Of a stretch of 63,039 nt of DNA, positions 55,237 to 59,215 are shown one piece after another (the first letter of the stretch is position 1; each line of letters starts with the position of its first letter). The notes beneath the pieces were generated by a model. The model had not been told where the DNA came from. It searched no databases and saw nothing but the letters and a program-made list of their open reading frames with translations. Source of the stretch: a virus; IMG/VR virus record IMGVR_UViG_3300046519_000446, positions 1 to 63,039 of that record; one strand, written 5' to 3'. The translations under genes were made by a program, and so were the position numbers.

Positions 55237-55478
55237 CCCGCCCCGCCCGCCAATCCCCTGCCCAGATGCAAGCCGCCTGCGACCGGTTCAACGCCCGCCA
55301 CAAGCCCGGCGACACGATCACGGTCTACACCGGCCTGATCGGTGAAAACCCGAAGTCGGCCCAGGTCCGCTGGCCCGCTGAGATCATGGGCGGCCACACG
55401 GCGGTCGTCTACGTCACCGGCGCGGCGCACGGCGCCATCGCTCTGACGCATACGGCGGCGGAGGTGGTTCGTGGGTGA
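55233..55478 (+). CDS. Hypothetical protein
   Basis: From ATG 55233 (ATGA overlap) the product has 81 residues: a helical start, then a beta region (GDTITVYTGLIGENPKSA; GGHTAVVYVTG). The size suggests a small SH3-like fold. Unknown. Confidence 0.55.
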   Translation: MTRPARQSPAQMQAACDRFNARHKPGDTITVYTGLIGENPKSAQVRWPAEIMGGHTAVVYVTGAAHGAIALTHTAAEVVRG

Positions 55479-56073
55479 GACCCCTTCCCGGTTCCCCCTG
55501 GCTTGGCCAGCGTATAAGCCGCGCACCTCGTGGGATCGCCGCCGGCGCGGCAAGTTCTCCGCTAGCGGCCGGACGATCACCATGAAGGAGTCGATCACCC
55601 GCGCCATGGCCGAGGTGGCCCGCTTGGGCGGCACCTACGGGCTGATTTCGTCCAACGTGGCCCTGCGCCTCGACGGCCTGCCCAAGAGCGGCCAGGGCGA
55701 GCCAGCGGACCCCGGCGTCTGCCTCTACTTCCAGATCGACGGCAAGCCCTACGCCATGGCCTGCGACGTCTACGACAAGGTCGCCCAGAACCTCGCAGCC
55801 ATCGCGGCACACATCGAGGCGACGCGGGCGATCACCCGTCATGGTGTCGCCACAGCAGCCGAGACCCTGCAGGCCTTCGCCGCCTTGGCCGCTCCCGCCC
55901 CGCGCTCATGGCGTGACGTCTTGGAGCTGAGCCGAGACGCCGGGATCGGCGACGCGCGTGCCGCCTTCCGCCGCCTCGCCCAAATGCGCCATCCCGACAA
56001 GGGCGGCACCGAGGGGGCGATGGCTGAGCTCAACGCGGCCCGTGACGCGGCCGAGCGGGAGTTGGGCGCATGA
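55471..56073 (+). CDS. J-domain-containing phage protein
   Basis: From GTG 55471 the product has 200 residues. The C-terminal 60 residues have a DnaJ-like J domain: a helix with WRDVLELSRDAGI, then RAAFRRLAQMRHPDKGGTE with the essential HPD motif, and a closing helix. J domains stimulate DnaK; a phage J protein could recruit host DnaK to replication or assembly. The N-terminal part (WDRRRRGKFSASGRTITM) is of unknown fold. Confidence 0.75.
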   Translation: MGETPSRFPLAWPAYKPRTSWDRRRRGKFSASGRTITMKESITRAMAEVARLGGTYGLISSNVALRLDGLPKSGQGEPADPGVCLYFQIDGKPYAMACDVYDKVAQNLAAIAAHIEATRAITRHGVATAAETLQAFAALAAPAPRSWRDVLELSRDAGIGDARAAFRRLAQMRHPDKGGTEGAMAELNAARDAAERELGA

Positions 56074-56534
56074 GCCCCGCTGATCTCGTCGAGAAGCGCC
56101 GCCCCCTCACCCGCCGCGAGATCATCGAACTGGCCGTGCGCCAGGTCGGCGTCTGTGGATGCGGCTGTGGCGTGAAGCTCAACGCTCTGACGGAGGGTGT
56201 GATCGACGAGCACATCATCCCCCTGGAACTGACCGGCTCCAACGACCTGTCCAACCGAGAACTGTGGCGCGCGCCCTGCTCGGCTGAGAAGACGAAGAAG
56301 GACCGCACGAACATCGCCAAGGCGCAACGCTTGGCTGGCGAGACCTGCGCGGGGCCGACCAAGAACCCGATCAAGTCGAGAGGGTTCGGACACCTGACGC
56401 GCAAGTTCGACGGCTCCATCGGCCTGTCGAAGGCTGAGCAACGCAGACTATCGGCTGGCGCGGAACGCGTCCACACTGGGCAACTCCGGGATGAATACTC
56501 ATCTTCTCCCCGCTCTACTAAGGCTGGTGCCTGA
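56070..56534 (+). CDS. HNH endonuclease
   Basis: The protein has 154 residues. GVCGCGCGVKL gives the zinc Cys, DEHIIPLELTGSNDLSNRELW and CSAEKTKKD the HNH motif. Typical phage HNH nuclease, possibly for packaging or homing; here in the early operon and coupled to the cytosine methyltransferase. Confidence 0.8.
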   Translation: MSPADLVEKRRPLTRREIIELAVRQVGVCGCGCGVKLNALTEGVIDEHIIPLELTGSNDLSNRELWRAPCSAEKTKKDRTNIAKAQRLAGETCAGPTKNPIKSRGFGHLTRKFDGSIGLSKAEQRRLSAGAERVHTGQLRDEYSSSPRSTKAGA

Positions 56535-57481
56535 TGGACAGGGGGAGAGGAAAGGCCGGACGCCGCGGCGTCTACTACAACGAATTCAACAAGCAGAAAG
56601 CGGCCTGGCTGCGCCATCTCATAGAGGAGGGCGTGATCGCCCATGGCTTCGTCGACGAACGCCCGATCCAAGCCGTCCAGCCCGAAGACCTCGACGGCTT
56701 CGTCCAGTGCCACTTCTTCGCCGGCATTGGCCTCTGGAGCCTCTGCCTGCGCAACGCTGGATGGCCCGACGATCGACCTGTTTGGACCGGTTCCTGTCCT
56801 TGTGGGCCTTTCAGTAAGGCCGGAAATCGTCTCGGCTTCGACGACCCGCGCCACCTTTGGCCGCAGTGGTTTCGGCTCATCCTCGAGCGCCGGCCTGTCG
56901 TGCTGTTTGGCGAGCAGTCTGATGAAGCGCTCTCGTGGCTCGACCTTGTTCAAGCTGACCTGGAGAGCCGCGGCTACGCCGTCGGGCCGGCTGTTATACC
57001 TGCTGCGGGCTACGGCGGCGCGCATGGACGCCATCGGATTGGCTTCGTGGCCGACGCCGACAACACCGAGTGGTGGACAGAACGTGCCCCCTGGAACGAC
57101 GGCCGGTGGCCGGCGGCCGGACGGATCCAAAGCCACAATCACGCTGAAGATGATCTCATCGCTCGCCGCCTGGCCGACGCCAACAGCGCAGGACGCATCC
57201 GGCTCGAGGAACGCGACAAGTTCCAGGCAGCAAGACTCTCAGCACCACGCGGGGGTGACAATGATGGACGCGGCGCTGTTCGCGGATTGGCGGCGGCCGA
57301 CTTCCTCTTTTGTCGTGACGATCGCTGGCGCCCAGTTGAACCCGGAACATTCCCGCTGGTTGATGCGGATTCCGGCGGTGTGGAGCTCCTGCGCGGTTAC
57401 GGCGATGCCATCGACGTCGAGGCGTTCACGAACCTGATCGGCGCCTATCTCGACTGCGCGCCGTCACGAGCCGCGGCATGA
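56534..57481 (+). CDS. DNA cytosine-5 methyltransferase (C5 type)
   Basis: The protein has 315 residues. HFFAGIGLWSL (62-70) is SAM motif I, VWTGSCPCGPFS (83-94) is motif IV with catalytic Cys90 (the usual PCQ reads PCG), LFGEQ (124-128) replaces ENV, and the end RPVEPGTFPLVD with LLRGYGDAID is motif X-like. It is shorter than typical C5 enzymes, as in other phages. A second long frame overlaps it almost fully (56643-57437). No restriction partner. Confidence 0.8.
   Translation: MDRGRGKAGRRGVYYNEFNKQKAAWLRHLIEEGVIAHGFVDERPIQAVQPEDLDGFVQCHFFAGIGLWSLCLRNAGWPDDRPVWTGSCPCGPFSKAGNRLGFDDPRHLWPQWFRLILERRPVVLFGEQSDEALSWLDLVQADLESRGYAVGPAVIPAAGYGGAHGRHRIGFVADADNTEWWTERAPWNDGRWPAAGRIQSHNHAEDDLIARRLADANSAGRIRLEERDKFQAARLSAPRGGDNDGRGAVRGLAAADFLFCRDDRWRPVEPGTFPLVDADSGGVELLRGYGDAIDVEAFTNLIGAYLDCAPSRAAA
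56643..57437 (+). CDS. Overlapping second-frame gene inside the C5 methyltransferase (candidate)
   Basis: The +1 frame is open for 264 codons inside the methyltransferase gene. Its product has recurring features I recall from phage proteins of unknown function next to C5 methyltransferases: GPTIDLFGPVPV, ATFGRSGFGSSSSAGL, STLFKLTWRAAATPSGR, SWPTP twice, and near the end QLNPEHSRWLMRIPAVW. Motifs rather than random composition argue for a real gene. The start is uncertain: ATG 56643 or an internal TTG near 56735. Comparison across relatives would settle this. Confidence 0.55.
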   Translation: MASSTNARSKPSSPKTSTASSSATSSPALASGASACATLDGPTIDLFGPVPVLVGLSVRPEIVSASTTRATFGRSGFGSSSSAGLSCCLASSLMKRSRGSTLFKLTWRAAATPSGRLLYLLRATAARMDAIGLASWPTPTTPSGGQNVPPGTTAGGRRPDGSKATITLKMISSLAAWPTPTAQDASGSRNATSSRQQDSQHHAGVTMMDAALFADWRRPTSSFVVTIAGAQLNPEHSRWLMRIPAVWSSCAVTAMPSTSRRSRT

Positions 57482-57564: not shown

Positions 57565-57996
57565 ATGACAAATCCTACTCCTACTACAGGGATAGACCGG
57601 GATGGGCTGGAGAGCGCTCGCGCCAGCTTGGCCGATCATCTCGACGATTTCGACCGCGAGAACAACGACGACATTGACGCCGAAGATTTCAACATCGGCC
57701 AGGACGAGTACATCGAGGTCTGGGCGGCTCGGACCCTAGCCAAGGAACAGGCGGAAACCATCGCCAGCCTGACCGCGACGCTGGAATACGCCGAGGACCG
57801 GCTGCACGAGATCAACGTCAGCAACTACGACCATGACGACGTTTGCCGCCTGAACGAGCGGTCGGTCGAGGTCATCCTTGCCATCCGCCACACGTTGAAA
57901 GACGTCTCCCGATGCTGCTCTGGGGGAGATGCTGTTAACATCCTCCACCGGCCGAGGCCGAAGGATTGCCAAGAAGGGAGAGCCCCTCTTGAGTAG
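57565..57996 (+). CDS. Hypothetical acidic protein, 3' end altered by the TnpB element
   Basis: From ATG 57565 the product has 143 residues, acidic with helices (DRDGLESARASLADHLDD; LEYAEDRLHEINVS). The last 20 or so residues are encoded by the reverse of the tnpB 3' end, so the original C-terminus has probably been lost. A possible displaced tail sits after the element at 59200-59245. Unknown function. Confidence 0.55.
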   Translation: MTNPTPTTGIDRDGLESARASLADHLDDFDRENNDDIDAEDFNIGQDEYIEVWAARTLAKEQAETIASLTATLEYAEDRLHEINVSNYDHDDVCRLNERSVEVILAIRHTLKDVSRCCSGGDAVNILHRPRPKDCQEGRAPLE

Positions 57997-59215
57997 TTCG
58001 CACTTCATCGGAAGGGAAACCCCTTTCCTCCATGCGCATCCACGCAGTGTTCCTGCGCAGTATCTCTATAGCGGCATTTGTGTCGGCGTGGATTTCGAAG
58101 CCGCAATGGTGGCAAACGAAGCGAGCTTGGCTTTCGCGGCTCCGTTTGTCTATGCAGCCACAGGCCGAACATGTCTGACTGGTGTGTTGAGCCGGGACCT
58201 TGCAAAGAAAGCCGCCTCGCTCTTCGAGCTTGTAGGAGAGCAGCGTCTCGAATTGAGACCAACCCTGGTTAAGGATGGCGCGATTCAGGCCGCGCTTCTG
58301 GGAGACGCCCTTGCCGGGCTCGTCGAGCGTGCCGGCGGCGCTGGCGGTCATGTTGGCGATTTTCAGATCTTCGAGGACGACGGTTCCGAAGCGTTTGGCG
58401 AGGCCTGTCGTCACTCGGTGGCACCAGTCCTTACGGATACGCGCGCGCTTCGCGGACAGTTTGGCGCAGCGCCGCAATTGCTTCAGCCTTCGCTTAGAGC
58501 CTCGCTTGCGCCTGGCAAGGACGCGCTGTGCGGCACGTTGGCGACGCTCGACGACCAAAAGACAGGCTGGAATAGAAAACATCTCACCGGTGCTCAAGGC
58601 CAGCGTGTTCGTGACCCCGCGATCAATGCCAACGCTTGTGCCGACATGATCAACTGCGGGCGCTTCGAAGGCGCAGGCGAAGCTGACGTGCCAGCCAAGC
58701 GCGTCGTGCGACACCGTGGCGTTGCGGATCTGACCCCGGATCGGACGAGTGTCTCTGAACTTCACCCAGCCGATCTTGGGCAGGCGGACAGACGACCATT
58801 TGTCGTTAAGGCGCCTGACCTGGACCTCGCGGCCGAGAAATCGGAAGGCGTCGTTCACGCCCTTTCGGCGAGGCGTCGGATAGTGCGCCCTGCCGGCGAA
58901 GAAGTTGGTGAAGGCCCTATCGAGATCCATGAGGGCTTGCTGCGGACAGGTCTGAGCGACGGCTGCGATCCAGTCGAACTCGGCGCGCAACAGAGTAAGT
59001 TCTTTGCTCTGAGCGAAGTAGTTGAGATTTCCGCCGGTCTGGCGCCGAAACTGTCTCCACCAGTTCTCACGTTGATCGAGCGCCAAGTTATAGACCAGCC
59101 GACAAACGCCGGAGAAAGCCCGGAAGGCACTCTCCTGCTCTGGAGTCGGATGGAGCTTGAAGCGGAAACCGCGCACCTGCATTCCGCTAATCTACCCGAA
59201 GCCGCTGGAGAAGTC
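57900..59215 (-). mobile_element. IS200/IS605-type element with tnpB only (borders approximate)
   Basis: The element carries one gene, tnpB, and no TnpA transposase, like IS1341-type elements. It has inserted into an early plus-strand gene. At the 3' side, TCTCCC at 57905-57910 can pair with GGGAGA at 57924-57929, and GATGCTG repeats nearby, a plausible right-end hairpin. The exact ends and any target site cannot be fixed without an uninterrupted relative. Confidence 0.7.
57935..59182 (-). CDS. tnpB: TnpB RNA-guided nuclease-type protein
   Basis: The protein has 415 residues. The N-terminal OrfB region (FRFKLHPTPEQESAFRAF; GVCRLVYNLALDQRE) is followed by the RuvC core: Asp187 in GIDRGVTNT, Glu271 in VVLEDLKI, a four-Cys zinc ribbon (CSACGC 338-343; CHHCG 357-361), and Asp367 in ADTNAA. 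All three catalytic residues are present. TnpB proteins are RNA-guided DNA nucleases whose guide RNA comes from the element's 3' end, here expected at about 57.85-58.0 kb. It is antisense to the surrounding early genes. Confidence 0.9.
   Translation of the reverse strand: MQVRGFRFKLHPTPEQESAFRAFSGVCRLVYNLALDQRENWWRQFRRQTGGNLNYFAQSKELTLLRAEFDWIAAVAQTCPQQALMDLDRAFTNFFAGRAHYPTPRRKGVNDAFRFLGREVQVRRLNDKWSSVRLPKIGWVKFRDTRPIRGQIRNATVSHDALGWHVSFACAFEAPAVDHVGTSVGIDRGVTNTLALSTGEMFSIPACLLVVERRQRAAQRVLARRKRGSKRRLKQLRRCAKLSAKRARIRKDWCHRVTTGLAKRFGTVVLEDLKIANMTASAAGTLDEPGKGVSQKRGLNRAILNQGWSQFETLLSYKLEERGGFLCKVPAQHTSQTCSACGCIDKRSRESQARFVCHHCGFEIHADTNAAIEILRRNTAWMRMEERGFPSDEVRTTQEGLSLLGNPSASAGGGC

Follow-up and report, generated by a model that had tools for sequence, protein, structure and literature searches.

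Can a reading frame of 264 codons that lies wholly inside a phage DNA methyltransferase gene be a gene in its own right and, if so, what does it encode? We sought to answer this for a methyltransferase locus in a stretch of 63,039 bases, here called the window, which makes up an entire IMG/VR virus record. An earlier note on this DNA had claimed a +1 frame of 264 codons within the gene, and a frame of exactly 264 amino acids begins at an ATG at 56643, in the +1 register relative to the methyltransferase frame and entirely nested in it. The coordinates that the note attached to it, 56534-57481, are right for the methyltransferase but not for the second frame itself, which spans 56643-57437. The segments DLFGPVPV, TFGRSGFGSS, TLFKLTWRA and LNPEHSRWLM quoted from its product are present; SWPTP, however, does not occur twice, since there is one SWPTP and one AWPTP. 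We refer to the two products as alpha and beta:

56534-57481, plus strand: alpha, the C5 cytosine methyltransferase frame (frame 1), ATG start, 315 amino acids (ORF list; phrog_363; PF00145; AlphaFold/Foldseek).
56643-57437, plus strand: beta, the overlapping +1 frame (frame 2), ATG start, 264 amino acids as listed (ORF list; phrog_1008 and phrog_31772; open in relatives; synonymous constraint).

The genes around alpha are closely packed. The ORF at 56070-56534 looks by eye like an HNH protein, for which a Pfam search returned no match, and the ORF at 55471-56073 has a J-domain-like C-terminus by a sub-threshold match. The stop of the HNH-like ORF overlaps the start of alpha (TGATG), and the ATG of the next gene, at 57478, overlaps the alpha stop; because of these overlaps at both ends, the HNH-like ORF, alpha and the downstream gene are suggested to form a translationally coupled operon. 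A gene for a TnpB / IS605 OrfB-like protein with Cas12f1-like TNB, OrfB_IS605 and HTH_OrfB domains (57935-59182, minus strand) directly adjoins the methyltransferase operon in the phage genome.

Alpha is recognizable as a C5-cytosine methyltransferase by its matches to PF00145 (E 7e-14) and, over residues 12-308, to phrog_363 (E 2e-55), and a Foldseek comparison of its AlphaFold model retrieved M.HhaI and M.HaeIII (E 8e-9 to 2e-8). Motifs I, IV, VI and VIII, the PF00145 hallmarks of such enzymes, occur in order, and motif X lies near the C-terminus of the same chain, with GNA in 126 of 135 relatives:

56714-56731, plus strand: alpha motif I, FFAGIG (alignment).
56789-56815, plus strand: alpha motif IV, GSCPCGPFS (alignment; catalytic Cys invariant in 135/135).
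56909-56917, plus strand: alpha motif VI equivalent, GEQ (alignment; Glu invariant in 135/135).
57023-57037, plus strand: alpha motif VIII, HGRHR (alignment; both Arg invariant in 135/135).
57392-57412, plus strand: alpha motif X, RGYGDAI (alignment; Asp where 126/135 have Asn).

By alignment and profile, the target-recognition domain (TRD) and motif IX are absent from the chain that carries motifs I-VIII, and are located instead in frame 2. Consistent with this, the alpha model is confident at residues 12-190 and in the motif X helix and is largely disordered at 195-287, with pLDDT below 50 at 195-220, 240-253 and 272-287, where a TRD would lie.

Two residues set the window's own clade apart within these motifs. 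At 57401-57406, in motif X, Asp replaces the near-invariant Asn (GDA, shared by 9 of 135 relatives), and at 56801-56806, in motif IV, PCG takes the place of PCQ (6 of 135). The motif X Asn appears, from the motif, to correspond to one in M.HhaI that is replaced by Arg in SpCmoX, a phage carboxymethyltransferase, and by Lys in the engineered variant M.MpeI N374K (PMC12783734), and for this reason cofactor use in the clade may be worth testing.

What, then, is frame 2? The earlier note gave it no identity; our evidence points to the half of the enzyme that alpha is missing, a recognition region together with motif IX. Beta matches two PHROG families that bear the name 'DNA methyltransferase', phrog_1008 (E 1.4e-22) and phrog_31772 (E 6e-12), as do all 120 of the frame-2 members scanned, and a tblastn search with frame 2 alone retrieved 130 phage records; a Pfam family for it was not found. 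The following segments stand out:

56943-56963, plus strand: beta segment TLFKLTW (conservation; read +1 from alpha 'DLVQADLE'; observed/expected identical codons 2.09).
57042-57335, plus strand: beta target-recognition-like region (hhalign; codon positions; alpha predicted to be disordered over this stretch).
57048-57059 and 57171-57182, plus strand: the two beta WPTP repeats, inside the target-recognition-like region.
57336-57383, plus strand: beta motif IX, LNPEHSRWLMRIPAVW (hhalign; observed/expected identical codons 2.5-2.9, the maximum of the gene).

The TLFKLTW segment falls in a predicted strand (beta residues 103-111), and motif IX overlaps the stretch of alpha immediately before motif X. 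Throughout the frame-2 alignment, two or more WPTP repeats are followed by a motif IX of the form LNPxHSRWLMGxPxxW. Single-chain mycobacteriophage enzymes carry in one frame motifs I-VIII, several LLPTPxxxDG repeats, RLxPxFxEWMMGWPxGW (IX) and GNGVVPQ (X). Against the TRD and motif IX of these enzymes, beta aligns with an hhalign probability of 96% and an E of 2.7e-9, an E-value that refers to one pair and that the short PTP repeats may inflate; motif IX is nonetheless in register, aligned to LAPAFSEWMMGWPAGW. Alpha in turn matches their motifs I-VIII (profile comparison, E 1e-19). Because beta aligns to the TRD and motif IX and alpha to motifs I-VIII, what is the recognition domain and motif IX of a single-chain enzyme is read here in frame 2, and in frame 1 the same bases read as a linker and the approach to motif X.

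Taken together, the locus very probably encodes a naturally split C5-cytosine methyltransferase, the two subunits of which would be read from shared DNA in two frames. Alpha, with motifs I-VIII and X, would bind AdoMet and carry out catalysis, and beta, in the +1 frame, would be the DNA-recognition half, with its WPTP-containing target-recognition region and motif IX. Sequence comparison shows that both frames are conserved and selected and that the motifs are divided between them; beyond this, we infer that beta is translated, most likely by internal initiation on the shared mRNA, and that the two chains assemble into one active, site-specific enzyme. It would methylate the phage's own DNA, most likely to protect it from restriction by the host. 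Frame 1 would serve in the middle of the gene mainly as a linker kept open to reach motif X, with selection acting there on frame 2.

How beta is started bears on this model. In the window, the ATG at 56643 is the sole start with a Shine-Dalgarno-like sequence:

56625-56630, plus strand: AGGAGG, possible ribosome-binding site 12 nt before the ATG at 56643 (a long spacing; may be incidental to the frame-1 'EEG').

A start near 56735 with a ribosome-binding site, as suggested earlier, found no support, there being no such site at that position. Several relatives (among them L007 and L008) lack an ATG corresponding to 56643, and many others have AAGGAG followed by TTG or ATG near 56838-56841, a second site that the window lacks. 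The start of beta is thus uncertain, with candidates that appear to range from 56643 to about 56840. Across the whole family, a sliding profile of observed over expected identical frame-1 codons rises at about 56800, just past motif IV, and is above 2 at many positions from 56879 onwards; the window's own clade shows an excess of 1.6-1.8 already from about 56657, near the ATG at 56643.

The late onset of strong constraint across the family, along with a predicted disorder of the first 80 residues of the ORF from 56643, would also suit a +1 ribosomal frameshift that fuses the N-terminal part of alpha to the recognition part. We consider this very unlikely. Such a fusion would be without motifs VI, VIII and X, and a conserved slippery site was not seen by eye in the alignment of the window's clade. 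Moreover, a ribosome-binding site with an in-frame start just after motif IV occurs in 34 of 116 relatives, against 9.6 (sd 2.7) in codon shuffles, in which synonymous codons are shuffled among positions with the same amino acid so that the frame-1 protein is unchanged. Because of this enrichment, which fits internal initiation, the latter appears to be favoured over frameshifting for beta.

Both frames could also be genes without beta being part of the enzyme; it might, for example, inhibit or partner host restriction enzymes. The AlphaFold model of beta, which matches no known fold, leaves room for such a role, yet the model is weak (mean pLDDT 62, pTM 0.30; folded parts at about 81-175 and 234-240; alignments used for structure prediction exclude two rows from named phage records), and beta had no PDB match by fold, at this low confidence, or by sequence. 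Against a separate role stand the profile matches of beta and alpha to complementary parts of single-chain enzymes, the lack in alpha of a motif IX and, by prediction, of a folded TRD of its own, and the precedent of M.EcoHK31I, so that we regard it as very unlikely and retain the split enzyme as the preferred reading.

Is frame 2 a gene at all? In the window alone, its length is unremarkable at the local G+C (P about 0.1): the frame-2 core is open in 11% of codon shuffles that preserve the frame-1 protein, and a +1 ORF as long arises in 8.5%. Among relatives, openness of the frame is far above chance. In 85 unique relatives picked by frame 1 only, the +1 frame contains 0 stops from motif I to motif X where 273 (sd 12.5) are expected, and it is fully open in all 85, against 4.5 expected. 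Frequent stops among relatives, named beforehand as an outcome that would speak against a second gene, are thus not what is found. No similar depletion occurs in these 85 relatives in the +2 or the three antisense frames, the latter being fully open in 5, 0 and 0 of them. A 370-codon antisense ORF over the methyltransferase gene (56030-57142) serves as a negative control, as antisense frames in relatives lack comparable stop depletion.

The same holds in bacterial genomes. Eighty loci picked by frame 1 (G+C 0.51-0.67) came from a profile scan of contigs, a query with the single window protein having returned no match; their +1 frames contain 5 stops against 259 (sd 11) expected, and 76 of the 80 are open. 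In the four others, which have 1-2 apparent stops, frame-2 matches reach almost to the end of the profile, which probably means that the region scored extends too far downstream. No frame-2 stop occurs across 134 relatives from about 56678 to about 57386. The frame also persists at lower G+C: one relative (L339; 36.5% G+C overall, 45% in the gene) has a +1 frame of 222 codons, against a longest of 204 in 3000 shuffles. Single-chain methyltransferases of similar G+C, from mycobacteriophages and a Gordonia phage, have +1 frames within or near chance expectation.

The pattern of base changes shows selection on frame 2 independently of stops. Before the overlap, relatives at 35-65% identity that share a fourfold-degenerate frame-1 amino acid also share its third base 28.8% of the time, against a null of 27.1%. 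Inside the overlap, where the null is about 27%, the value is 52.5% over motifs I-VIII, 61.9% across the variable part and 89.5% immediately ahead of motif X. Frame-1 codons within the overlap are identical at 2 to 2.9 times the expected rate, with no excess outside it; the sliding profile peaks at 2.9 where frame 2 reads RWLMRIPAVW and returns to 1 past the end of frame 2. Codon positions tell which frame is selected where. Before the overlap, substitutions at frame-1 positions 1/2/3 number 35/23/131 in 22 close pairs, and after motif X 22/26/91, the pattern of a usual frame-1 gene. In the variable region, well-aligned close pairs show 11/1/0, 12/1/2, 21/4/0, 14/5/1, 20/6/1 and 30/11/3; changes therefore fall at third positions of frame 2, and the region is selected as frame 2. 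The pattern is flatter in more diverged pairs, probably through poor alignment or recombination. Stops, synonymous sites and codon positions together bear out the earlier proposal that both frames are under selection.

A reading in which only frame 1 is a gene, high G+C and the codon use of frame 1 produce the +1 ORF, and its 'motifs' echo residues conserved in frame 1, is plausible for the window alone, where about one codon shuffle in nine leaves the core open, long chance ORFs are frequent (the antisense ORF among them) and frame 2 has no Pfam family, but it is scarcely credible and is ruled out statistically by the relatives, with their missing stops in both sets, an excess of codon conservation restricted to the overlap, a frame-2 third-position bias in the variable region, survival of the frame at 45% G+C and no such ORF in single-chain methyltransferases of similar G+C.

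The split layout is not peculiar to the window: well over a hundred relatives conserve the hidden frame. A DNA pattern for LNPxFVxWLMGFP, which selects loci independently of frame 1, identified 80 viral loci, 65 of which have a frame-1 methyltransferase profile covering the motif in the -1 frame; in 12 further loci, the methyltransferase profile lies beside the motif and the -1 frame stays open for more than 200 codons. Synechococcus and Microcystis phages (L347, L348) have the same layout with a different type of motifs I-VIII. Found with two or more distinct types of motifs I-VIII, the layout is either very old or arose more than once. We lean, by a narrow balance, towards an old and widespread class in which catalytic and recognition halves occupy two frames and specificity would evolve in the hidden frame, the visible frame being a linker there.

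Individual copies depart from this layout. In one relative (L012, 2001-3126), frame 1 is interrupted by two TGA codons in the variable region (2538 and 2706) and frame 2 is open throughout; not every copy, therefore, makes a whole alpha, and in this one either alpha is decaying or the pair has come to do without an uninterrupted alpha. A motif-IX locus on the reverse strand (L292) has motifs I-VIII in one frame and the TRD, IX and X together in another, and is either an AquI-like overlapping split or a frameshifted single-chain enzyme, and possibly an evolutionary intermediate. In a prophage of E. coli strain Ec1117 (L254, 3863-5032), RefSeq has the methyltransferase as two incomplete pseudogene pieces, which may reflect genuine decay or the way in which double coding affects annotation; the gene that precedes it is annotated as frameshifted.

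To our knowledge, same-strand overlaps of 170-300 codons with strong selection on both frames have rarely been demonstrated in bacteria or phages. At this locus, the two frames seem to specify complementary portions of a single enzyme, and the system would offer a direct test of how a gene pair evolves new DNA specificity while two proteins share every base. There are practical consequences as well. Gene callers usually omit one frame, so that many phage 'orphan' C5 methyltransferases have probably been annotated without their recognition subunit, and a recoded frame-1 clone would destroy frame 2 and yield an inactive enzyme.

Existing annotation contains both halves. In PHROG, phrog_363 corresponds to frame 1 and phrog_1008 and phrog_31772 to frame 2, all called 'DNA methyltransferase'; their overlap in one locus and the division of an enzyme between them are not stated there. 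Escherichia phages K1ind2 and fKuEco01 have both frames as overlapping CDS, 'C-specific methylase' and 'Mte8-like protein', the second with no function given beyond similarity. As the earlier note said, other phages thus carry the second frame as an annotation of its own. A literature search that covered few subscription journals returned no description of phage C5 methyltransferases in overlapping frames. C5 methyltransferases of Paracoccus prophages, which have relaxed specificity (PMC3925955, PMC6536676), were weighed only as functional precedents.

Among known enzymes, the single-chain mycobacteriophage proteins (ShiLan gp70, WillSterrel) carry motifs I-VIII, a PTP-containing variable region, motif IX (EWMMGWPxGW) and motif X on one chain and, unlike the window, use one frame only, with no long +1 ORF beyond chance. 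The split genes of M.AquI and of Gordonia phage Upyo are tandem and non-nested and have motif X with IX on the second chain, again unlike the window; in M.AquI, the split point lies elsewhere and motif X is on the small subunit. The closest parallel is M.EcoHK31I, in which the small-subunit gene reportedly lies in another frame within the large-subunit gene, the two products being about 309 and 176 amino acids. M.EcoHK31I (YGGCCR) is described as a two-polypeptide C5 methyltransferase with motifs I-VIII and X on the large subunit and IX on the small (PMC3404938). The window locus is like it in having I-VIII and X on the large subunit and IX on a second polypeptide, a likeness of motif layout, and is probably a phage self-protection enzyme of this kind. 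The 'striking overlapping gene pair' of the earlier note stands as an overlap with selection on both frames, but it is less novel than implied, as M.EcoHK31I has this division of motifs. The difference concerns the TRD, which for M.EcoHK31I is placed in the large subunit, as a prediction only (PMC3404938), whereas at the window locus codon positions indicate that the recognition region is selected in the frame of the small subunit. The codon-position bias between cleanly aligned close relatives, the alignment of beta by hhalign and the predicted disorder of alpha all point to a TRD on the small subunit. What is new here is that the overlap appears to be old and widespread and that the hidden frame appears to hold the recognition region, at odds with what was predicted for M.EcoHK31I; if this is true, the assignment of the M.EcoHK31I recognition domain to the large subunit would need revision.
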